From positions 1 through 34,459 of the forward strand of contig JAISIJ010000356.1 of the NCBI GenBank assembly GCA_031262245.1: a stretch of DNA of 34,459 nucleotides, written 5' to 3'. The notes under the pieces were generated by a model. The model was not told where the DNA came from. It saw nothing but the letters and a program-made list of their open reading frames with translations, and searched no databases. This document shows positions 1-32,999 of this stretch, piece after piece. The position numbers were made by a program, and so were the translations under genes. Position 1 is the stretch's first letter; every line of letters begins with the position of its first letter. The stretch comes from Oscillospiraceae bacterium. GTDB lineage: Bacteria > Bacillota > Clostridia > Oscillospirales > Ruminococcaceae.

Positions 1-30
1 TACTACTCAGAGCTTTTTAGATGATTAAGA

Positions 31-70
31 AGTAGTCACTCTTTTTGACGGGAGGGCGACTACTTTTTTC
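31..70. terminator. Equivalent terminator hairpin in copy 1
   Basis: AGTAGTC (31-37) / GACTACT (58-64) followed by TTTTT. Confidence 0.65.
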
Positions 71-149
71 TACGTTTTGCTAAAAGGACGTAAACTATAT
101 TAAAATTATCAAGTATTACCTTAATGACAATCCCAATAAGCTCCCACAT
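60..149 (-). CDS. 29-aa hydrophobic peptide MWELIGIVIKVILDNFNIVYVLLAKRRKK, candidate type I toxin-like peptide (copy 1)
   Basis: ATG preceded by AGGGGGTGA-type SD on the minus strand; hydrophobic core with basic tail; paralogous to the ORF at 407..493; stop codon overlaps a terminator hairpin. Confidence 0.7.
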   Translation of the reverse strand: MWELIGIVIKVILDNFNIVYVLLAKRRKK

Positions 150-217
150 AGGCTCTTCACCCCCTTTCGAGGGTTCAAAGCAGTAACCACCAGCAGTTTT
201 CAGACTTCACTATGAAT

Positions 218-246
218 ATTCTACACAAAACAAGCTGTTTTGTCAA
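218..246 (-). promoter_or_regulatory. Promoter of peptide mRNA copy 1 with a palindromic spacer
   Basis: Minus strand TTGACA (241-246), 17-bp spacer, TAGAAT (218-223); spacer is part of ACAAAACA-AGC-TGTTTTGT. Confidence 0.7.
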
Positions 247-283
247 TTATTTGTGATTCATTTTTATTTTTTTCGGAAAATTG

Positions 284-312
284 TTGACATAAACATAAAT
301 ATTGTATATAAT
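284..312 (+). promoter_or_regulatory. Consensus sigma-A promoter for a putative plus-strand antisense RNA
   Basis: TTGACA 284-289, 17-bp spacer, TATAAT 307-312. Confidence 0.8.
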
Positions 313-318
313 ATCTAT

Positions 319-415
319 GTAGTGAAGTCTTACTGACGGCTACTACTCAGAGCTTTATTTTAATTTGAAATTAAAAGTAATCGCATCCTTTGGTCAGGGT
401 GGGCGATTACTTTTT
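319..415 (+). ncRNA. Putative ~97-nt antisense/antitoxin RNA convergent to the small peptide mRNA
   Basis: Starts after the promoter at 284-312 and ends at hairpin AAAAGTAATCGC/GCGATTACTTTT plus T-run; no ORF with an RBS seen. Confidence 0.55.
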
Positions 416-416
416 T
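373..416. terminator. Bidirectional terminator shared by the peptide mRNA and the antisense RNA (copy 2)
   Basis: 12-bp stem AAAAGTAATCGC (373-384) / GCGATTACTTTT (403-414) with flanking A/T runs. Confidence 0.75.
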
Positions 417-493
417 CTATAGGTCACAATAAGATATATACAGTCAAAATTATCTAAAAAGACTTTAATGACAATTCCAATAAGTTCCCACAT
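407..493 (-). CDS. 28-aa hydrophobic peptide MWELIGIVIKVFLDNFDCIYLIVTYRKK, candidate type I toxin-like peptide (copy 2)
   Basis: Same SD context, position and N-terminal 11 residues as copy 1; conserved reading frame despite DNA divergence. Confidence 0.72.
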   Translation of the reverse strand: MWELIGIVIKVFLDNFDCIYLIVTYRKK

Positions 494-561
494 AGGCTCT
501 TCACCCCCTCTCGAGGGCTCAAAGCAGTAACCACCAGCTGTTTTCAGACTTCACTATGAAT

Positions 562-590
562 ATTTTATACAAAACAAGCTGTTTTGTCAA
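562..590 (-). promoter_or_regulatory. Promoter of peptide mRNA copy 2 with a palindromic spacer
   Basis: Minus strand TTGACA (585-590), 17-bp spacer, TAAAAT (562-567). Confidence 0.7.
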
Positions 591-599
591 TCAACAAAA

Positions 600-634
600 A
601 TAACTTTCCCCCGAAAAGGGGGATTATTTTTTAA
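600..634. terminator. Terminator downstream of the hyd operon
   Basis: CCCCC-GAAAA-GGGGG hairpin with flanking A/T runs. Confidence 0.75.
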
Positions 635-649
635 TCACAGCTAAATATA

Positions 650-2443
650 TTATTTCTTAACAATTGCACCGAATTTACATTTTTCGATACAAGCACCGCA
701 TTTAATACATTTTTCTTTGTCAATAACATAAGGGCTCTTTATTTCGCCGGTAATTGCACCGACAGGACAAACTCTTGCACAAGCAGAACACCCTTTACAT
801 TTCTCGGGGATAATCTCATAAGAAAGTAAATCTTTACATACACCGGCAGGGCATTTCTTATCTTTGATATGTGCAACATATTCATCTCTGAAATATCTCA
901 AAGTTGAAAGAACGGGGTTAGGGGCAGTTTGTCCCAAACCGCAAAGTGAATTTTCTTTGATATGGTAACAAAGTCTTTCAAGTTTATCAAGGTCTGCCAT
1001 TGTTGCTTGACCTTTGGTAATTTTTTCGAGAATTTCATACATACGCTTTGTGCCGATACGGCAAGGAGTACATTTACCGCAAGACTCGTCAACCGTAAAC
1101 TCAAGGAAAAATTTAGCTATATCAACCATACAGTTGTCTTCGTCCATTACGATAAGTCCGCCTGAACCCATCATTGAACCGATTGCGATAAGGTTATCGT
1201 AATCTATTTCAATATCCATATATTGAGCGGGTATACAACCGCCTGAAGGACCGCCTGTTTGAGCAGCTTTGAATTTCTTGCCGTTAGGTATGCCACCGCC
1301 GATTTCTTCAATAACAGTACGCAGAGTAGTACCCATAGGTATCTCAACAAGACCTGTGTTGTTGATTTTACCACCCAAAGCAAATACTTTTGTTCCTTTG
1401 GATTTTTCAGTTCCCATTGAAGAGAACCATTCTGCACCGTTAAGGATAATCTGACAAACGTTAGCATAGGTTTCAACGTTGTTGAGGATAGTGGGACATT
1501 CAAAAAGTCCTTTTTCAGCGGGGAACTGAGGACGGGGACGAGGTTCACCTCTGTTACCCTCAATAGATGTCATTAACGCTGTTTCCTCACCGCAAACAAA
1601 CGCTCCCGCACCTAATCTCAAACCTATATCAAAACTGAAATCGGTATCAAAGATTTTTTCGCCCAAAAGACCGTATTCACGAGCCTGTTTAATTGCAATT
1701 TCAAGACGTTTGATAGCAATAGGATATTCAGCACGAACATAGATATAGCCTTGAGTTGCACCTATTGCATAACCGGCAACAGCCATTGCTTCGAGTACAG
1801 CGTGAGGGTCGCCCTCAAGAACTGACCTGTCCATAAACGCACCGGGGTCACCTTCGTCTGCATTACAGCAAACATATTTTTGGGGTGCATCGGGAACGAT
1901 ATTTCTTGCAAGTTTCCATTTCAAACCTGTCGGGAATCCGCCGCCGCCGCGACCTCTCAAACCGCTGTCTAAAATAGTTTGAATAACGTCCTCGGGGCTC
2001 ATTGATGTTAACACTTTACCGAGAGCCTCATAGCCCCCTGTTCCTATGTATTCATCAATATCTTCGGGGTTGATAACACCGCAGTTACGCAAAGCAATAC
2101 GATGTTGTTTTTTATAAAAATTTGTTTCGTTAAGAGATTTTATAGCGTCTTTATCCAATGTTTCGTCATATACAAGGGATTTAACAACTCTGCCTTTTAA
2201 AAGGTGTTCCGAAACGATTAAAGGAATATCCTCTGCTTTAACTTGTGAATAGAACACACCTTCGGGATAAACAAGCATAATAGGACCTTTTTCGCAAAGT
2301 CCGAAACAACCTGTTGTAACAACATTAACTTCTTTTTCCAGTGCGTTTATTGCGATTTCAGCTTTCAATGTTTCCACAATCTTAGCACTGCCGCCGCTGG
2401 TACAGCCTGTGCCGCCGCAGATTAACACTTGACTTCTGTACAT
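650..2443 (-). CDS. hydB: NADH-dependent hydrogenase subunit HydB (NuoF-like, with Trx-like [2Fe-2S] N-terminus and 2x[4Fe-4S] C-terminus)
   Basis: GRGGGGFPTGLKWKLA, ESCGKCTPCRIG and C-terminal CKGCSACARVCP / CIKCGACIEKC motifs. Confidence 0.9.
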   Translation of the reverse strand: MYRSQVLICGGTGCTSGGSAKIVETLKAEIAINALEKEVNVVTTGCFGLCEKGPIMLVYPEGVFYSQVKAEDIPLIVSEHLLKGRVVKSLVYDETLDKDAIKSLNETNFYKKQHRIALRNCGVINPEDIDEYIGTGGYEALGKVLTSMSPEDVIQTILDSGLRGRGGGGFPTGLKWKLARNIVPDAPQKYVCCNADEGDPGAFMDRSVLEGDPHAVLEAMAVAGYAIGATQGYIYVRAEYPIAIKRLEIAIKQAREYGLLGEKIFDTDFSFDIGLRLGAGAFVCGEETALMTSIEGNRGEPRPRPQFPAEKGLFECPTILNNVETYANVCQIILNGAEWFSSMGTEKSKGTKVFALGGKINNTGLVEIPMGTTLRTVIEEIGGGIPNGKKFKAAQTGGPSGGCIPAQYMDIEIDYDNLIAIGSMMGSGGLIVMDEDNCMVDIAKFFLEFTVDESCGKCTPCRIGTKRMYEILEKITKGQATMADLDKLERLCYHIKENSLCGLGQTAPNPVLSTLRYFRDEYVAHIKDKKCPAGVCKDLLSYEIIPEKCKGCSACARVCPVGAITGEIKSPYVIDKEKCIKCGACIEKCKFGAIVKK

Positions 2444-4728: not shown

Positions 4729-7251
4729 ATGAGGTTAAAAAAACTCGTATCCGTTTTGGTTTCCTTGAGTATGGTAGGCGGTTTAATGTCTGCTGTACCT
4801 ATGAACCAAGTTTCGGCAATCGAAACACCTGTTGAAAATACCTTTGACGTCAATTATGACGGCTGGTATAATGTAGGTGACTTGACAACTGTTACCGCAT
4901 TAGCAGGAGGCTATAATTCCGCAAGAGCAATGTTTGTTGACAATCGTCAAAGCGTTGATGACGGTGCAGAGGCACAAAAGGGTTATTATATTGAAGGCGG
5001 CCACAAATACAACTACAGCGTTTATGTTAAAGCAGATACCGACGAAACATTTATACTTACTCTGCGTTATCTGTATCCCGACGAAACTTACGGCTATAAA
5101 AACCTTGTGGTTAAAGACGTAAAAGCGGGTGAATGGACTAAATTAGAGGCAGTATATACCGCTCCCGAGGGAACTGTTAACCTTTCTCCTATTATCACAA
5201 CAGACAGCACCAACGATTTCTGGTTTGACCAATTTGTTGTTACAGAAACAACAAAAAAAGCCTTTGTTGTTGAGGCATCCGGCGGCGATGGTTTGGAAGA
5301 CATTTATGCTAACTATTTCCGTGTGGGTTGTGCGGTTTCTCCCGGCGGTAATAACGGTCTGAGTAATAGTATGATTCAAGGTATTATCCTTAAACATTTT
5401 AACTCAATCACTCCCGAAAATGAGTTAAAACCCAACTCTACTTTAAGAAATATCGCAAATAATGGTTCAACTGACACTAACATAATAGTAAACTTAAACG
5501 ATGCGGCTACTATTATGGAATTCTGTGCTACCAACGGTATCGGTATGCGTGGTCATACCTTAGTATGGCACTCACAAACTCCCGATAATTTCTTTAAACA
5601 AAATTTTAACGCAAACGGTGCAAATGTTTCAACTTCTGTTATGAACACTCGTTTGCAATCTTATGCAAACAATATGTTCAGAGATATAAGCACAAAATAC
5701 CCCTCTTTGGACCTTTACGCATTTGACGTTGTAAACGAGGCTATGACTGATAACGGTGCTACTTCTAACTGGAGAACATCCAATCGTCAAGGAGGTTTCA
5801 GTAACGGTACAAGTGCTGTTTCCGCTTGGGTTGCAATTTACGGTAATAACAGCTTTATTGAAAATGCTTTTTCTGCTGCTGCTGCTGCTCGTGACACATA
5901 TTACCCCGGTAAAATGAAACTCTTCTACAATGACTATAACGAATATATCAGCGGTAAAAGAGATGCTATCACAGCTATGGCAAAAGAACTCTTCGGTAAA
6001 GGTCTTGACGGTGTAGGTATGCAGGCTCACCTTTCCGACACTTATCCCAACTTCCAAACTTTCAGCGCAGCGCTTGACGGTTTCCTTGCTGTAGGTTGTG
6101 AAGTTCAAATCACAGAGCTTGATATTACAGGTTCAAACACAACAACAATGTACAAACAAATTTTCCAAAAAGCAGTTGAAGTTTCTCAGTCAACAAACAG
6201 ATTTACAGCACTCGTTGTTTGGGGAACAACCAACGCATCTTCTTGGAGAGCCGGTGAGGGTAACCAAGTTCTTCTCTTTGATAACAGCGGTAACGGCAAC
6301 GCTAACTTCCAACAAGTAAGCGGTGAATCTGTTGTTCCTAAAGCTCAATGGGGTGACGGTAACAGTCCTAAAGGTGCAGAACCTTATGTTCCTCCTACCC
6401 CCAATGAACCCGACCAATACGGCAGATTTTTCTTTGATACTTTTGAAAGCGGCGTAGGCAACTGGGCAGGGCGTGACGGTAACGGCGAAGTTACTGCTGT
6501 TCGTGCAACTCCCTCAAAAGCTTATGACGGTACAGGTGCTCTTGCCGTTTCCGGCAGAACTTCTACTTGGATGGGAACAGCTCGTCAACTTTCAACTTTA
6601 GATTTCCAACCGGGTAAATCTTATCAATTCGGCGGTGCTGTAATGTCCACAACCGCTGACACTAACTGGCAACTTTCAGTTTATTACACTTCCGGCGGCG
6701 AAGATAACTATGTAACTATTGATACAGGTTCTTCAGCGGCAGGTGAATGGTGTAATTTAGAGGGTACAATTGAATTACCCGCAGATGCAGCAAGTATGAT
6801 GGTTTATTTTGAAACAGAATACTTTGAAGAAGATGGTGCAGGCAACTTAACCGATTTCTATGTTGACAACGCATATGGCGGCAATGTTGGTTGTGTTTCT
6901 CCTCTCAAACAACAAGCAGTTGAAACAACAACTACAACTCAAGCAACCACTACCACTACTTCAACAAGAGCTACAACAACTTCAACCAGAGCAACAACTA
7001 CAACAACCGTAACAATCGCTCCTCCTACAGTTGCTTACGGTGATATTGACGGTGACGGCAGTGTTGGTAAAATGGCTGATATAGTTTTATTAGGAAAATA
7101 TCTTAAAGGCTCTATCGCTCTTAACAACTCCGCACTTACAGCATCTGATTGTGACGCTTCCGGCAATTCAAAAAACAAAATAGATACCGCTGACTTATCC
7201 GCATTAATCGGCTATTTATTAAGCACAGTCGGTTCTCTCCCCGTTGTTTAA
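4729..7251 (+). CDS. Cellulosomal endo-1,4-beta-xylanase: signal peptide, CBM22, GH10, CBM22-like, Thr-rich linker, dockerin
   Basis: ITPENELKP, GHTLVWHSQTP, FDVVNEA, QITELDI GH10 motifs; duplicated Ca-binding-type dockerin segment GDIDGDGSVGKMADIVLL...DCDASGNSKNKIDTADLSALIGYLL. Confidence 0.93.
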   Translation: MRLKKLVSVLVSLSMVGGLMSAVPMNQVSAIETPVENTFDVNYDGWYNVGDLTTVTALAGGYNSARAMFVDNRQSVDDGAEAQKGYYIEGGHKYNYSVYVKADTDETFILTLRYLYPDETYGYKNLVVKDVKAGEWTKLEAVYTAPEGTVNLSPIITTDSTNDFWFDQFVVTETTKKAFVVEASGGDGLEDIYANYFRVGCAVSPGGNNGLSNSMIQGIILKHFNSITPENELKPNSTLRNIANNGSTDTNIIVNLNDAATIMEFCATNGIGMRGHTLVWHSQTPDNFFKQNFNANGANVSTSVMNTRLQSYANNMFRDISTKYPSLDLYAFDVVNEAMTDNGATSNWRTSNRQGGFSNGTSAVSAWVAIYGNNSFIENAFSAAAAARDTYYPGKMKLFYNDYNEYISGKRDAITAMAKELFGKGLDGVGMQAHLSDTYPNFQTFSAALDGFLAVGCEVQITELDITGSNTTTMYKQIFQKAVEVSQSTNRFTALVVWGTTNASSWRAGEGNQVLLFDNSGNGNANFQQVSGESVVPKAQWGDGNSPKGAEPYVPPTPNEPDQYGRFFFDTFESGVGNWAGRDGNGEVTAVRATPSKAYDGTGALAVSGRTSTWMGTARQLSTLDFQPGKSYQFGGAVMSTTADTNWQLSVYYTSGGEDNYVTIDTGSSAAGEWCNLEGTIELPADAASMMVYFETEYFEEDGAGNLTDFYVDNAYGGNVGCVSPLKQQAVETTTTTQATTTTTSTRATTTSTRATTTTTVTIAPPTVAYGDIDGDGSVGKMADIVLLGKYLKGSIALNNSALTASDCDASGNSKNKIDTADLSALIGYLLSTVGSLPVV

Positions 7252-7663: not shown

Positions 7664-8608
7664 TTAACATATGCGGGGGAGGGCTTCGGAATAGAGTGGG
7701 TCAAGGATACGAGTGCCGCCGATATGTGTTTGAAGGAGGAGTTGAGAGGGGGCAGTGATTTCTCCGATGATTGCCGCGTTTTTACAGTAGGGGAGTTGAC
7801 AGATTTTGTCGATGTTAACGTCACCGATTATTAACATTTTCCCTTCGTTCGCCATATATATAGGCTCTAAGCCCAAAATATCACAAAAACCTTTTGTTTC
7901 TTGTGAAATGGGTAGACTGTCTTCGTAAATTTTCGCACCGCAATGGGATTTTTCGCAAATCTCATTGAGAACGGTAACAAGTCCGCCGCGAGTTATGTCA
8001 CGCATAGAATGAATACCGTCAAGGCAAGAGGAGAGGCTGTGTAAAGGTGCAACGTCGCTGGAAATATTGTTGGAAATGCCCATTCTTGCGGACATAATTG
8101 CCGCCTGATGTTCACCCAAAAAGCCTGTAACAATAATTTTATCGCCGATTTTGCTGTTGGAAATACTTAGGGGCGAAATAATCTCGCCGTAACCGCTTGT
8201 GTTGATAAAAAGTCCGTGATTTTCAACAACTTTTGTGTCACCGGCAACAATTTTCACATTGGCTTCTTTTGCGGTTTTTGCCATAGAGATTACAATTTTT
8301 TCAAGGGTTTCAATAGAAAATCCCTCACCGATTATAAATCCACAATTGAGATATTTTGGTAAAGCACCAACGCAAGTCAAGTCATTCACCGTGCCGCAAA
8401 CTGCCAATTTTCCAATATCTCCGCCCTTAAAAAAAATCGGGTCAATGACAAAACTATCAGTAGTCATCGCAAATTGTTTTGAATTGCAATCCAAAACCGC
8501 ACTATCTTCAGCTTTCAGTAAAATTTCATTATCAAAATGTTTAAAAAAAACATCATTAATCAATTTCCCTGTTAAAACGCCGCCGCTGCCGTGGTTCATA
8601 CTTATCAT
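7664..8608 (-). CDS. hypE: Hydrogenase maturation factor HypE
   Basis: MNHGSGG start, AIRS-like ATPase motifs, C-terminal GGTRILDPLYSEALPRIC ending in Cys. Confidence 0.93.
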   Translation of the reverse strand: MISMNHGSGGVLTGKLINDVFFKHFDNEILLKAEDSAVLDCNSKQFAMTTDSFVIDPIFFKGGDIGKLAVCGTVNDLTCVGALPKYLNCGFIIGEGFSIETLEKIVISMAKTAKEANVKIVAGDTKVVENHGLFINTSGYGEIISPLSISNSKIGDKIIVTGFLGEHQAAIMSARMGISNNISSDVAPLHSLSSCLDGIHSMRDITRGGLVTVLNEICEKSHCGAKIYEDSLPISQETKGFCDILGLEPIYMANEGKMLIIGDVNIDKICQLPYCKNAAIIGEITAPSQLLLQTHIGGTRILDPLYSEALPRIC

Positions 8609-8890
8609 TTTTTTTTCTTCACTTCTCTATTATTTTTTGTGAATTTTTATTTTCAAGGTTCTTTTATGCTTTTTCAAATTTTACACATTTCAAGATATTT
8701 TTTCTTCTCTATTATTCTTAGGGTATAGTTTTCCCTAAGTTTTTTTTACTTCTCTATTATTCTTAGGGTGTATTTTTCCCTAAGGTTCTTTTATGCTTTG
8801 TCAAATGTTACACATTTCAAGATAGGGTTTACTGATTTACATTCTTTTTTATGTTACACATTTCAAGATAGGGTTTAACTGATTTATATG
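8609..8890. repeat. Degenerate tandem stem-loop array between hypE and hypD
   Basis: CTTCTCTATTATTCTTAGGGTRTR.TTTTCCCTAAG at 8704 and 8749; ATGTTACACATTTCAAGATAGGGTTT(A)ACTGATTTA at 8806 and 8852; earlier degenerate unit near 8616-8700. Confidence 0.75.
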
Positions 8891-8905
8891 TTTTTTGACA
8901 TATCC

Positions 8906-9874
8906 CTAACTATACATAATTTTGCAAACACCCTCATTCCCCACCATACAAGCACCGATTGGGTTAAAAGGAGTACAAGTTTTTTTGAATAGCGGGCAGT
9001 CTTTGGGCATTTTTTTACCTAAAATAATCTCCGCACAACAACAACCTCTGCTTTTTTCCTCCGTGTCGGGGATATATTCATTATCAAAAGTATATGCAGA
9101 ATTTTCTATAATCCCTAAACCTCTCCACCAATCATTCGTCAAAGTGAAATGTTTGTTAATAAGTGCCAAAGCTTTCTCGTTACCGTTTTCTTTAACAATA
9201 TTTTTATAGAGATTTTTTACAGTAAAATCTGCATTTTCAACCATTTTCAGAGCAGAATAAATTGACATAAGTATATGCTCGGGGGTAAAACCTGTTACAA
9301 TAATGGGCTTTTTGTATTTTTTTACAATATATTCAAAAGGCTTACTGCCTATTATTGCACAAACATTACCCGGAGCTAAAAAAGCGTTAATTTCATTATC
9401 TGTATTACAAATATATTCCACAGCAGGAATAATGGCTTTTAAAGAAGTGAGGAGCTTGAGATTTTTCGGACAATCCTCAAGAATCAAGGCATAAATCGGC
9501 AAAGTTGTTTCAAAACCGACAGCCGCAAAACAGTATTTTTTGTCAGGGTTTTCCCTTGCAATGGCAACAGCTTCAAGAGGATTATACAAAATTATCTTGT
9601 TTTTTACATTTTCAAGGGATTTTTCGCTCCCTCTGACTTTAACCATATCCCCGAAAGTGAGGATAGTATATTCTTCAGAGAGTTGGACAAGTCTGTCAAC
9701 ATATCCTGCTTTTGTAACACACACGGGACACCCGGGTCCCGAAACGAGTTGGATATTCTTAGAAATCAAATCTCTTATGCCGTTTTTGTGTATAACGGAG
9801 GTGTGAGTGCCGCAAACTTCCATTATTTTAATATTTTTTTTGTATTCTTTTAGTTTTTTAATCAATATTTCCAT
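8906..9874 (-). CDS. hypD: Hydrogenase maturation factor HypD
   Basis: MEVCGTHT, SGPGCPVCVT, FAAVGFETT, GCCCAEI motifs. Confidence 0.95.
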   Translation of the reverse strand: MEILIKKLKEYKKNIKIMEVCGTHTSVIHKNGIRDLISKNIQLVSGPGCPVCVTKAGYVDRLVQLSEEYTILTFGDMVKVRGSEKSLENVKNKIILYNPLEAVAIARENPDKKYCFAAVGFETTLPIYALILEDCPKNLKLLTSLKAIIPAVEYICNTDNEINAFLAPGNVCAIIGSKPFEYIVKKYKKPIIVTGFTPEHILMSIYSALKMVENADFTVKNLYKNIVKENGNEKALALINKHFTLTNDWWRGLGIIENSAYTFDNEYIPDTEEKSRGCCCAEIILGKKMPKDCPLFKKTCTPFNPIGACMVGNEGVCKIMYS

Positions 9875-10125
9875 TATAAATCTTCACCCAAAACCGTTTT
9901 GAGTTCTTCCCAAATCTCGTCAATTTCTTCCGCCTCGGTTTTGTCAAGGACTTGAATAACGCAACTGGCGTGAACAAGCACTCTGTCGCCGTTTTTTACG
10001 TCAACAAGTCCGATATTTGCTTGAATTTTATTTCCTCTAATCTCAACAGTTGCTGTATTCTCATTAATATCCAAAACCTTGCCGCTTATTGCAACACACA
10101 TAGTATTTTTTACCTTTAAAATCAT
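9874..10125 (-). CDS. hypC: Hydrogenase maturation chaperone HypC (HypC/HupF family)
   Basis: MCVAISGKV start after an 8-aa N-terminal addition; length and VLVHASCVIQVLD match the family. Confidence 0.88.
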   Translation of the reverse strand: MILKVKNTMCVAISGKVLDINENTATVEIRGNKIQANIGLVDVKNGDRVLVHASCVIQVLDKTEAEEIDEIWEELKTVLGEDL

Positions 10126-12387: not shown

Positions 12388-12762
12388 CTAATTTGCTGCA
12401 TTTGCCTCCGCCTCTGCCTCCGCCTCCGCCTCCGCCTCCGCCTCCGCCTCACGTTCGGCATTGAAATCATCATACCAATCATCAAAATTTCTGTCCCAAG
12501 TATGAGAGCTTTCGTTAAGGGATTTTTCTATCTCTGCATTTCCCTCGTCAATGTCTTTCTGCTTTTCGTCTATCTGTTCGTTTAAAGTAGTTGTAACAGA
12601 AGTTGACGATGTTGTTAAAAGAGTTGTGGAAGTAGAAATAGTGGTTGAAGTGGAGAACGTTGTTGAAGTTGAACCGGTTGTTTCTTCTGTGTTTTCAGAA
12701 TTACAGGCGGCTGAAAAAACAGTAAGGGATAATAAGCTGATTAATGTAATAATTTTCTTCAT
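12388..12762 (-). CDS. Small lipoprotein with Ser/Thr-rich linker and (AE)n tail
   Basis: Lipobox-like LTVFSAAC; C-terminus EREAEAEAEAEAEAEAEANAAN. Confidence 0.75.
   Translation of the reverse strand: MKKIITLISLLSLTVFSAACNSENTEETTGSTSTTFSTSTTISTSTTLLTTSSTSVTTTLNEQIDEKQKDIDEGNAEIEKSLNESSHTWDRNFDDWYDDFNAEREAEAEAEAEAEAEAEANAAN
12404..12451. repeat. GCCTCC hexanucleotide microsatellite (about 8 units)
   Basis: GCCTCC GCCTCT (GCCTCC)x5 GCCTCA. Confidence 0.9.
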
Positions 12763-18755: not shown

Positions 18756-19619
18756 TTAATAGTTTTTTGGCATTTTTCTATTATTAAGGTATCTGATAGA
18801 TGCAATAAACAGCAGACTTAAACAGATAATGATTAGAATAATATATGAGGCTATTTCTCCAAAAGACGTCCAATCAGTAGAAAAAATATCATCGGATTCT
18901 TCGTTTCGTTTTTGTTCAATTCGTTCTAAATTTCTTTGTCCCGGTAAATCCATTTCCAAAAACAAAAAAAGTAAAAAGCATAACCCGGAGGTTAAGAAAG
19001 AGAAAAAAGCAGTTTTTAAAAAAGTTTTGTTGAGGTAAAACTCTAACCCGAGCAGTATGCCTAATTCAATAAAAAGAATCAAAAGGGGAGATAAAAAAGG
19101 CAAAAGAAAGAAAAGGTCAAAAATAAAGGTAAGAGGAATAAAGAGAAAAATATTAACCCAAAACTTTTTTGTTTTGATAAAAGGGAGTTTCCCTCTTTTT
19201 ACAAAATATATGATAATTGCAATAATCAGCAAACTTAAACAGTAACAAGTAATGTATATATAGGTGATTGTTTCCACCAAACCGGGCATAGGAAACCATT
19301 GGCTCTCTTTTCTGTTTATTTCCTCTAATTTTTCTAAATGTTTTAGTCCTAATAAGAAATTATTAGGTAAAAAAGAGAAAAATAAAAGACAAGCCCAACT
19401 CGTTAAAAATCCGAAAAGTGGAGCTTTCAGATAATGTCGGTTAATTAAAAATTCCAATCCTATTAATATAATAAACTGGGATATTACAACGCAAAATTGC
19501 CAAAACTCTGTAAAATCAAATAGAAAGAAAAGGTCAAAAATAAAGGTAAGAGGAATAAAGAGAAAAATATTAACCCAAAACTTTTTGTTTTTAATAAAAA
19601 GGAATTTCTTCATAGTCAT
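18756..19619 (-). CDS. Two-module multi-TM protein of unknown function
   Basis: Internal duplication: KFWVNIFLFIPLTFIFDLFFLF(D/L)... occurs twice. Confidence 0.75.
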   Translation of the reverse strand: MTMKKFLFIKNKKFWVNIFLFIPLTFIFDLFFLFDFTEFWQFCVVISQFIILIGLEFLINRHYLKAPLFGFLTSWACLLFFSFLPNNFLLGLKHLEKLEEINRKESQWFPMPGLVETITYIYITCYCLSLLIIAIIIYFVKRGKLPFIKTKKFWVNIFLFIPLTFIFDLFFLLPFLSPLLILFIELGILLGLEFYLNKTFLKTAFFSFLTSGLCFLLFLFLEMDLPGQRNLERIEQKRNEESDDIFSTDWTSFGEIASYIILIIICLSLLFIASIRYLNNRKMPKNY

Positions 19620-20085
19620 AACTCTTTCTCCCTTTCTTTTTTATAGAATATACAATAATTGCAATAATCAGCAAACCTAAACAGGCAACGGAAAGAAAAA
19701 GATATGAGCCTATTTCTGACAAATACGACCAATCACCAAAAAATAAATCCTCGTATTCATCGTTGCGTCTTTCTGAAATTTGAGTTAGATTTTTTTGTCC
19801 CGGTAAATATATTCCCAAAAACAAAAAAAGCAAAAAGAACCAAAAGCAGAGGGAAGCGGTTAAGAAAGAGAAAAAGGCGGTTTTTAAAAAGGTTTTGTTA
19901 AGATAAATTTCAAACCATAGTAATATTCCGAATTCAATAACCAAAGCGAAAATGATACCATAACTCTCCCAAGTGTCAAAAGGCAAAAGAAACAAATGGT
20001 CAAAAATAAAAGTAAAGGGAATAAAAAGAAAAATATTAATCCAAAACTTTTTGTTTTTAATAAAAAGGAGTTTTTTATTCGTCAT
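19591..20085 (-). CDS. One-module multi-TM protein paralogous to its neighbours
   Basis: KKFWINIFLFIPFTFIFDHLFLLPF...LNKTFLKTAFFSFLTASLC...LPGQKNL. Confidence 0.75.
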   Translation of the reverse strand: MTNKKLLFIKNKKFWINIFLFIPFTFIFDHLFLLPFDTWESYGIIFALVIEFGILLWFEIYLNKTFLKTAFFSFLTASLCFWFFLLFLFLGIYLPGQKNLTQISERRNDEYEDLFFGDWSYLSEIGSYLFLSVACLGLLIIAIIVYSIKKKGRKSYDYEEIPFY

Positions 20086-21031
20086 AATTCTTTCTCATTT
20101 TCTTTTTTATGGAATGTATAATATTTGTTATGAAGCGTACAATATCTGCAATAATCGCTAAATAGAAACAGGTAGAAATAAGAAATATAAATAAGGTCAT
20201 TTCAGCCGAATGCGGCCAATCGCTCCAAATTATATCGGAGGTTTTTCCGTAGTGATTTTGTACAACTTTAATTAAAATCTCTTGTCCCGGTAAGTACATT
20301 CCCAAAGATGCAAAAAGGATAAAAAACAAAAAGCAGAGAATAGAAGTTAAGAAAGAGAAAAGGGTGGCTTTTAAAAAGGTTTTGTTGAGATAAAACTCTA
20401 AACCGAGCAATATACCTAAATCAATAGCAAAAGCGAAAAGGAAACCGTAACTCTCCCAAGTTTTGAAAGGGAAAATGATTAAAATACCAAAAACAAAGGT
20501 AAGAGGGATAAAGAGAAAAATATTAATCAGAAACTTTGTTTTGATAAAAGGAGTTTTTTTAATCGTCATAATTTTCGTCCTTTTTCGTTCACGAGCGAGA
20601 TGTATTATTTTGGCAATCGCGTATATGCCGCAGGCAATCGCGTATATGCCGCAGATTATCATACATATTACAAAAAAAGAAAAAGGTTCAATAATATAAT
20701 CCGGCGGTACGTCAAAGTCGGCGGGTTCTTTTGCATATTTTTCTTCAGTGAGTTTTACTAATTTATTCAATCCCGGGAGGATTTTCAACACACCGCCTAT
20801 AATTGAAAAGAAAAATCCAAAACTTGCAGTTAAAAAAGCAAATTTTGCGGCGTTTAAGCGATTTTTATTTATTATTCGCTCCGCTGTCATCAAAACAATC
20901 AATCCTATTACAGAAATAAGCAAATCGTATCGAAACCCGAAAAGCAAAAAGGATAAATCCAACAGGTAAGTGTAGGGGATAAAGAGAAAAATATTAATCA
21001 GAAATTTTTTAATATCCCGATTTTCTGTCAA
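20075..21031 (-). CDS. Two-module multi-TM protein paralogous to its neighbours
   Basis: KKFLINIFLFIPYTYLLDLSFLLF and TKFLINIFLFIPLTFVFGILIIFPF modules. Confidence 0.75.
   Translation of the reverse strand: MTENRDIKKFLINIFLFIPYTYLLDLSFLLFGFRYDLLISVIGLIVLMTAERIINKNRLNAAKFAFLTASFGFFFSIIGGVLKILPGLNKLVKLTEEKYAKEPADFDVPPDYIIEPFSFFVICMIICGIYAIACGIYAIAKIIHLARERKRTKIMTIKKTPFIKTKFLINIFLFIPLTFVFGILIIFPFKTWESYGFLFAFAIDLGILLGLEFYLNKTFLKATLFSFLTSILCFLFFILFASLGMYLPGQEILIKVVQNHYGKTSDIIWSDWPHSAEMTLFIFLISTCFYLAIIADIVRFITNIIHSIKKKMRKNYDE
20612..20653. repeat. Perfect 21-bp tandem duplication inside a TM-protein gene
   Basis: GGCAATCGCGTATATGCCGCA x2, encoding repeated CGIYAIA. Confidence 0.95.
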
Positions 21032-32939: not shown

Positions 32940-32999
32940 TAGAAACTTATATCGCAAACACAAAACAGCTGGTTTTGTGTAATATGTCATAAAATGAAA

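Follow-up and report, generated by a model that had tools for sequence, protein, structure and literature searches.

A tandem array of putative type I toxin-antitoxin cassettes at the hydB-hydA junction of an [FeFe]-hydrogenase operon in an Oscillospiraceae bacterium

The stretch of DNA analysed here (hereafter the window) comprises the 34,459 nucleotides of contig JAISIJ010000356.1 from the genome assembly of an Oscillospiraceae bacterium (GCA_031262245.1), and it opens within an array of three or more short tandem cassettes of ~305 bp each. The array separates hydB from hydA in an [FeFe]-hydrogenase operon, hydA being located on a second contig of the same genome (C110). The window start is a contig end at which cassette B is cut, and the 3' terminal 88 bases of C110 correspond exactly to window positions 1-88; the join of the two contigs is supported by gene order, the other congener having the same flanking genes on each side. 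In the joined sequence the gap between hydB and hydA measures ~1.09 kb, and cassette A adjoins hydA. The features of the locus are as follows.

C110:1536-3335: hydA, on the other side of the array (Pfam Fe_hyd_lg_C, Fe_hyd_SSU)
C110:3380-3683: cassette A, with peptide MWELIGIVIKVFLDNFDCIYLIVTYSKN
C110:3721 to window 246: cassette B, spanning the contig join
C110:3721-3749: cassette B antisense promoter, TTGACA-17-TAGAAT, 11/12, just outside the window
1..72, plus strand: 3' part of predicted antitoxin RNA B, whose 5' end and promoter are on C110 (3721-3777), reached through the 88-nt exact overlap
24..211, minus strand: predicted toxin mRNA B, ~188 nt, with inferred ends
60..149, minus strand: toxin-like peptide B, 29 aa, MWELIGIVIKVILDNFNIVYVLLAKRRKK
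152-181, minus strand: toxin B Shine-Dalgarno (SD) hairpin, within predicted toxin mRNA B
218..246, minus strand: cassette B toxin promoter, TTGACA-17-TAGAAT, 11/12, with a palindrome at 225-243
284-590: cassette C
284..312, plus strand: cassette C antisense (antitoxin) promoter, TTGACA-17-TATAAT, 12/12, conserved in A, B (on C110) and the sister species
319..418, plus strand: predicted antitoxin RNA C, ~100 nt, with a 5' hairpin (319-346, conserved ACUGACGGCUAC) and a terminator hairpin; ends inferred from promoter and terminator
370..555, minus strand: predicted toxin mRNA C, ~186 nt, with inferred ends and a 3' overlap of 49 nt with antitoxin RNA C
373..414, both strands: shared bidirectional terminator of cassette C, recognised from a perfect 12-nt inverted repeat and folds; antisense-strand loop CUUUGGUCAGG, YUNR U-turn-like
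407..493, minus strand: toxin-like peptide C, 28 aa, MWELIGIVIKVFLDNFDCIYLIVTYRKK
496..525, minus strand: hairpin sequestering the toxin C SD, GGGGG at 508-504, predicted P(unpaired) 0.00-0.01
562..590, minus strand: cassette C toxin promoter, TTGACA-17-TAAAAT, 11/12, with a palindrome at 569-587
607..623, minus strand: terminator-like hairpin after hydB and before the array, 6-bp stem and T-rich tail
650..2443, minus strand: hydB, NuoF-like [FeFe]-hydrogenase subunit (Pfam Complex1_51K, NADH_4Fe-4S)

Cassettes A, B and C and a single cassette in the sister species are 303-307 bp long with an identical order of parts (4/4), and in the joined contigs the spacing between cassettes is 340-344 bp. 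The initial annotation had described two tandem cassettes of ~344 bp; the 344-bp period stands (a direct repeat with 91% identity across 146 nt) but the count of two does not, cassette A being the third, and still more copies could exist, as the contig join crosses the repeat. Its minus-strand reading frames of 28-29 aa were recovered at 60-149 and 407-493, as were a minus-strand promoter of the form TTGACA-17-TAnAAT for each copy (TAAAAT at 590-562, TAGAAT at 246-218), the perfect plus-strand promoter at 284-312, and a terminator overlapping the stop codon, the arms of which (373-384 and 403-414) are 100% complementary. It had credited an antisense promoter to the second copy only, which proved wrong given the corresponding site of the first copy on C110. 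Besides the third copy, it had missed the interruption of the hydrogenase operon and the absence of Fst-type direct repeats.

Convergent promoters scoring 11-12/12 are found in all four cassettes, that of the sister species having two 12/12 promoters within 0.3 kb. The ~1.1-kb array contains six sites of at least 11/12, all in the convergent pairs that the layout requires, and the other ~33.9 kb of the window contains nine on both strands (~0.3 per kb); promoter density in the array is ~20 times the window background. It might be objected that the sequence is AT-rich and that short reading frames are common, and that the cassettes are an artefact of repeated DNA with chance frames and promoter-like sites. 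That promoter density, the position of six of the eight substitutions between codons 1-16 of B and C at third codon positions, and the retention of all elements at ~57-72% DNA identity in another species make such an explanation scarcely credible, and the last largely refutes it. A perfect 19-bp palindrome, ACAAAACANNNTGTTTTGT, lies in the toxin-promoter spacers (window 225-243 and 569-587, C110 3662-3680) and is intact genome-wide only at these three promoters, with a one-mismatch copy at window 32960-32978. It was rejected as a conserved operator, being missing in the sister species and intact only in three near-identical promoters.

The toxin mRNA of each cassette is predicted to carry a leader of ~62 nt and an SD hairpin with the consensus GCUUU-GA-(G/A)CCCUC-GARA-GGGGGU-GA-AGAGC. 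According to fold prediction, P(unpaired) of the SD is ~0 in A-C, and in the sister copy the SD is mostly paired, more weakly, with an equivalent GCU..CCCC-GGGG..AGC helix possible. The predicted antisense RNAs are 93-100 nt long, consist of a 5' hairpin followed by the terminator hairpin, and fold better than shuffled sequences (z -2.7 for B, -3.5 for C at -28.4 kcal/mol, and -5.5 for the sister copy). Toxin mRNA and antisense RNA would overlap by 46-49 nt in A-C and by 51 nt in the sister copy. Their shared terminator overlaps or abuts the toxin stop codon and is present in B, C and the sister species; in A it is decayed, with most of the stem lost. A simple terminator scan did not list this hairpin, which the folds and the exact inverted repeat make plain; by inspection, its T-tract is strong on the antisense side (5-6 T) and poor on the toxin side.

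Antisense terminator loops of the YUNR type, CUUU(U)G, occur in 4/4 cassettes, UUUG being present on the antisense strand of all four, and the toxin-mRNA loop has a YUNR motif (CUGA) in mRNA C only. Cognate pairs have predicted duplex energies of -79 to -95 kcal/mol, non-cognate pairs of -25 to -52 kcal/mol. Between the antisense 5' domain and the non-overlapping part of the mRNA, duplex energy was no better than that of shuffles (fraction 0.15-0.62). The first ~35-45 nt of both RNAs instead show same-sense similarity (P 0.001-0.003 in A-C, 0.024 in the sister copy), which amounts to an inverted repeat at the DNA level, and these leaders could represent a 5' hairpin that stabilises both RNAs, a binding site for a common protein or a remnant of the way in which the antisense gene arose. 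Covariation (MAFFT and RNAalifold) is weak, with two compensated pairs, as just two independent lineages are available for comparison. In the sister species the antisense 5' hairpin persists, and one of its pairs is fully compensated (AU to GC).

The peptides are 28-29 aa long, start MWELIGIVIK... and contain a hydrophobic stretch of ~23 residues, within which positions 3, 10, 14 and 17 form a stripe that is polar in 4/4 copies (E/N3, K/Q10, D14, D/N/H17). Their helical moment exceeds that of shuffles only marginally (P 0.02-0.09), and peptide A is without the basic tail and has a net charge of -1. Codons 1-16 are, by their substitution pattern, under purifying selection: comparison of B with A and C gives pS 0.50-0.61 and pN 0.06 (0.61 and 0.06 for B against C). 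Cassettes A, B and C are 85-98% identical outside a middle block that comprises the C-terminal half of the peptide, the terminator and the 3' part of the antisense RNA. In this block B shares 52% identity with A and C in the CDS part and 63-68% in the linker and terminator; the corresponding values for A against C are 100% and 88%. The CDS part of B is closer to the sister species (63%) than to A or C (52%), and the block types may predate the species split, the flanks having been homogenised within the array. Divergence of B in the very block that holds toxin tail, terminator and antisense target predicts that its antitoxin would be orthogonal to those of A and C.

The sister species is represented by the sole other genome of the genus examined (BNZF01000019.1, 'Clostridia bacterium PG1894_132'), which has one diverged cassette of 303 bp, also between hydB and hydA, in a gap of 964 bp. 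Its two promoters both score 12/12, an SD hairpin is possible, and the terminator is kept, as is a peptide beginning MWNIIGIITQIFIDNFHMFNIILTNHRK... that is 39% identical to copy B. DNA identity to the window species is 52-72% by segment, with perfect blocks that include parts of the antisense 5' hairpin (ACTGACGGCTAC), the leader (AAGCAGTAACC) and the start region (CCACATAGGCT). One A is missing before the expected stop, and the frame runs 15 residues further to give 43 aa, an extension that may be genuine or may stem from a frameshift or a misassembly. Tandem repeats flank the cassette in this gap (locus L006, 1174-1328 and 1853-2062), in arrays of 59 nt x 2.5 and 37 nt x 5.7 (AAAATAAAAAAGTCGCAAAGGTAAATTAAGGCAGCTC).

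Searches of Pfam, NCBIfam, PHROGs, PADLOC and PDB returned no real match to the peptide (in Pfam none even at E 10), and NCBIfam NleE (E 0.14) and phrog_14464 (E 0.087) were dismissed as chance-level matches. No Rfam model came close to its gathering score, no relatives turned up by tblastn among phages and plasmids, and IMG/VR, searched by peptide and by two DNA patterns, contained no real match. A profile search of 398 genomes of the family, 396 of the order and 392 of the class recovered only the two congeners; weak profile matches (E 0.002-0.006) were judged to be chance, those within the family after their flanks had been read. A DNA pattern run over GTDB r220 had one real match, the sister genome, and seven others attributed to chance; the pattern demanded near-identity in short blocks, and distant relatives could be missed. 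The literature searched describes no type I toxin-antitoxin (TA) system from this organism group, and the family looks genus-restricted.

Several interpretive claims made at the outset are borne out by these results. The peptide had been placed outside known families, as the database searches confirm, and selection on its frame, which had been proposed, is seen in codons 1-16. The suggestion that antitoxin specificity is diverging between paralogues agrees with the concentration of divergence in the toxin-3'/terminator block. A homologue that preserves the frame was found in a second species together with promoters, SD hairpin and terminator, and the retention there of convergent promoters, SD hairpin, shared terminator and frame supports the type I TA-like architecture that had been recognised in the window.

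We interpret the array as a tandem, previously undescribed family of type I TA systems with membrane-active peptide toxins and antisense antitoxins, to which we assign a probability of about 0.78. The sequence itself shows the anatomy, its conservation in two species, the conservation of the frame, the insertion in the hyd operon and the block-wise divergence. The layout is that of type I systems in general, in which a short hydrophobic peptide of the membrane type is encoded by an mRNA that an antisense RNA gene overlaps. Each cassette would produce an mRNA of ~185 nt encoding a membrane-active helical peptide of 28-29 aa, and this mRNA would be silent from birth, its SD being locked in a hairpin. 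The convergent promoter would produce a two-hairpin antisense RNA of ~95 nt and, as the terminator is common, the 3' terminator loops of the two RNAs would be complementary. Kissing of the U-rich loops would be followed by zipping into a duplex of ~50 bp, leaving the toxin mRNA silenced, destroyed or in a dead complex; when antisense RNA ran short, the peptide would be made and would damage the membrane of its own cell. Transcription, antisense silencing, toxicity and the orthogonality of B to A and C we infer from sequence. The type I TA reading is weakened because no second region of complementarity, of the kind that represses translation in Fst, is detectable through which initiation might be blocked at a distance; decay of the 3' duplex is an alternative route. 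It is weakened too by its basis in two species only, by the 43-aa frame of the sister copy, and by the loss of terminator and basic tail in cassette A.

Among known systems, Fst/par (par of pAD1) shares convergent promoters, a shared bidirectional terminator with complementary loops, a toxin mRNA of ~200 nt against an antitoxin of <100 nt, an SD locked in a 5' hairpin, and a hydrophobic peptide of ~30 aa with a charged tail, with chromosomal copies in Firmicutes (PMC7472228). The Fst toxin signature is missing from the inspected alignment: there is no P/D/S/TxxxG and no W between helix and tail, the W of the present peptide being residue 2, and PF13955 was silent (its best match in the genome fell in an unrelated frame of 737 aa). 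In Fst the direct repeats DRa/DRb provide a second complementary region over the start site, and a YUNR-type loop, not universal in the family, starts kissing (PMC7472228); no such repeats are found here, where both RNA leaders are same-sense instead. The pair CTCAGAGC/CTCAAAGC was considered as a DRa-like repeat and discarded, being unconserved in the sister copy and with total complementarity no better than shuffled. Judged by toxin signature and repeats, the array is not a member of the Fst family, while its layout would work like one.

CD2517.1-RCd8, CD0956.2-RCd10 and related pairs of Clostridioides difficile are likewise convergent, overlapping toxin and antisense genes, with small hydrophobic toxins bearing lysine-rich ends and multiple copies with cognate-specific antitoxins; those toxins, however, are 34-53 aa long and mostly prophage-borne, whereas the array here lies in a metabolic operon (PMC6563280). 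They have no detectable similarity to the present peptide (tblastn, phage and plasmid collections). TisB/IstR-1 of E. coli also involves a membrane helix of 28-29 aa with a narrow polar strip, D5-K12-Q19-D22-K26 compared with E3-K10-D14-D17 here; its antitoxin pairs at a standby site and tisB is LexA-controlled (PMC8309996). A TisB-like polar ladder is offered as a suggestion only, the amphipathicity here being marginal. The cassette C loop CUUUGGUCAGGG recurs letter for letter in the model consensus of pT181-type ctRNA (RF00242), a U-turn kissing loop, but that RNA controls plasmid replication and not a peptide gene; membership was rejected at 23.5 bits against a gathering score of 56.

In both species the array occupies precisely the junction of hydB and hydA, genes that are ~8-45 bp apart in nearly all other genera compared, of the same and other families. 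Such a clean gain would suit a selfish, addiction-type mobile type I TA insertion, amplified in tandem and unlinked to hydrogen metabolism, as would the different ~0.5-kb insert that one member of another family carries at the same junction. This reading rivals ours as to role and not as to mechanism, and we place it a little short of even odds: no transposase was found beside the array, phage, plasmid and viral relatives are absent, and the same site is retained in two species. The conserved placement would also fit a non-toxic role, in which the peptide helps the hydrogenase as a small membrane protein and is fine-tuned by antisense RNA. We think this very improbable, as other genera possess the operon but not the peptide, each copy has its own promoter, terminator and dedicated convergent RNA, and the C-terminal half is free to diverge.

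In the window species, the terminator after hydB, the toxin promoters as the only sigma-70-like promoters towards hydA within the gap, the weaker U-tract on the toxin side and the decayed terminator next to hydA, taken with the exact position of the array in both species, are compatible with a leader or attenuator of the hydrogenase operon, in which the antisense RNA sets read-through into hydA and the peptide is a leader or incidental. Such a function would account neither for purifying selection on the peptide codons and the conserved hydrophobic pattern nor for three complete tandem copies with diverged recognition blocks, and other genera run hydB-hydA without any array; we consider it improbable. 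For the type I TA array itself, the terminator after hydB and the lack of any other promoter found before hydA raise the prospect, unlikely in our judgement, that the toxin promoters, notably that of cassette A, supply hydA transcription and wire the array into hydrogenase expression. The loss of terminator stem and basic tail in cassette A could be decay or, again an outside chance, selection for read-through into hydA. Were the array so wired, the catalytic hydrogenase subunit would be co-regulated with the toxin mRNA and the antitoxin RNA, and a cell in which the hydrogenase locus was lost or silenced would sense this or be punished for it. Mirrored (same-sense) 5' hairpins would take the place of Fst direct repeats in the RNA pair.

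Searches that start from the known toxins would overlook this family, as they depend on homology. Its paralogues share promoters and leaders and differ in the toxin-tail/terminator block, offering a natural experiment on antisense/toxin co-divergence, and a fixed site in an [FeFe]-hydrogenase operon would make the purpose of a chromosomal type I TA system testable in a defined metabolic context.

Other features of the locus and its surroundings deserve mention. The insert at the hydB-hydA junction of the genome from the other family (L054, 993-1500) contains a long hairpin and a small reading frame (MVQTYQGYFKNGRFMTLEAVEIPEEAEVYIMVTGRK...) that by eye resembles an orphan type II antitoxin. Some kilobases away from the [FeFe]-hydrogenase operon, at window 7664-10125, are genes that on reading resemble those for HypE, HypD and HypC, which serve the maturation of [NiFe] hydrogenases. 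At 4729-7251, a GH10 xylanase that carries CBM4_9 and dockerin type I domains suggests that the host is probably a cellulosomal fibre degrader. Three adjacent reading frames at 18756-21031 encode repeated paralogous membrane proteins (motif KFWVNIFLFIPLTFIFD) with no convincing Pfam family among the two tested. The putative lipoprotein encoded at 12388-12762 has an (EA)n repeat and a stretch rich in Thr and Ser, and an overlapping minus-strand frame is arginine-rich.
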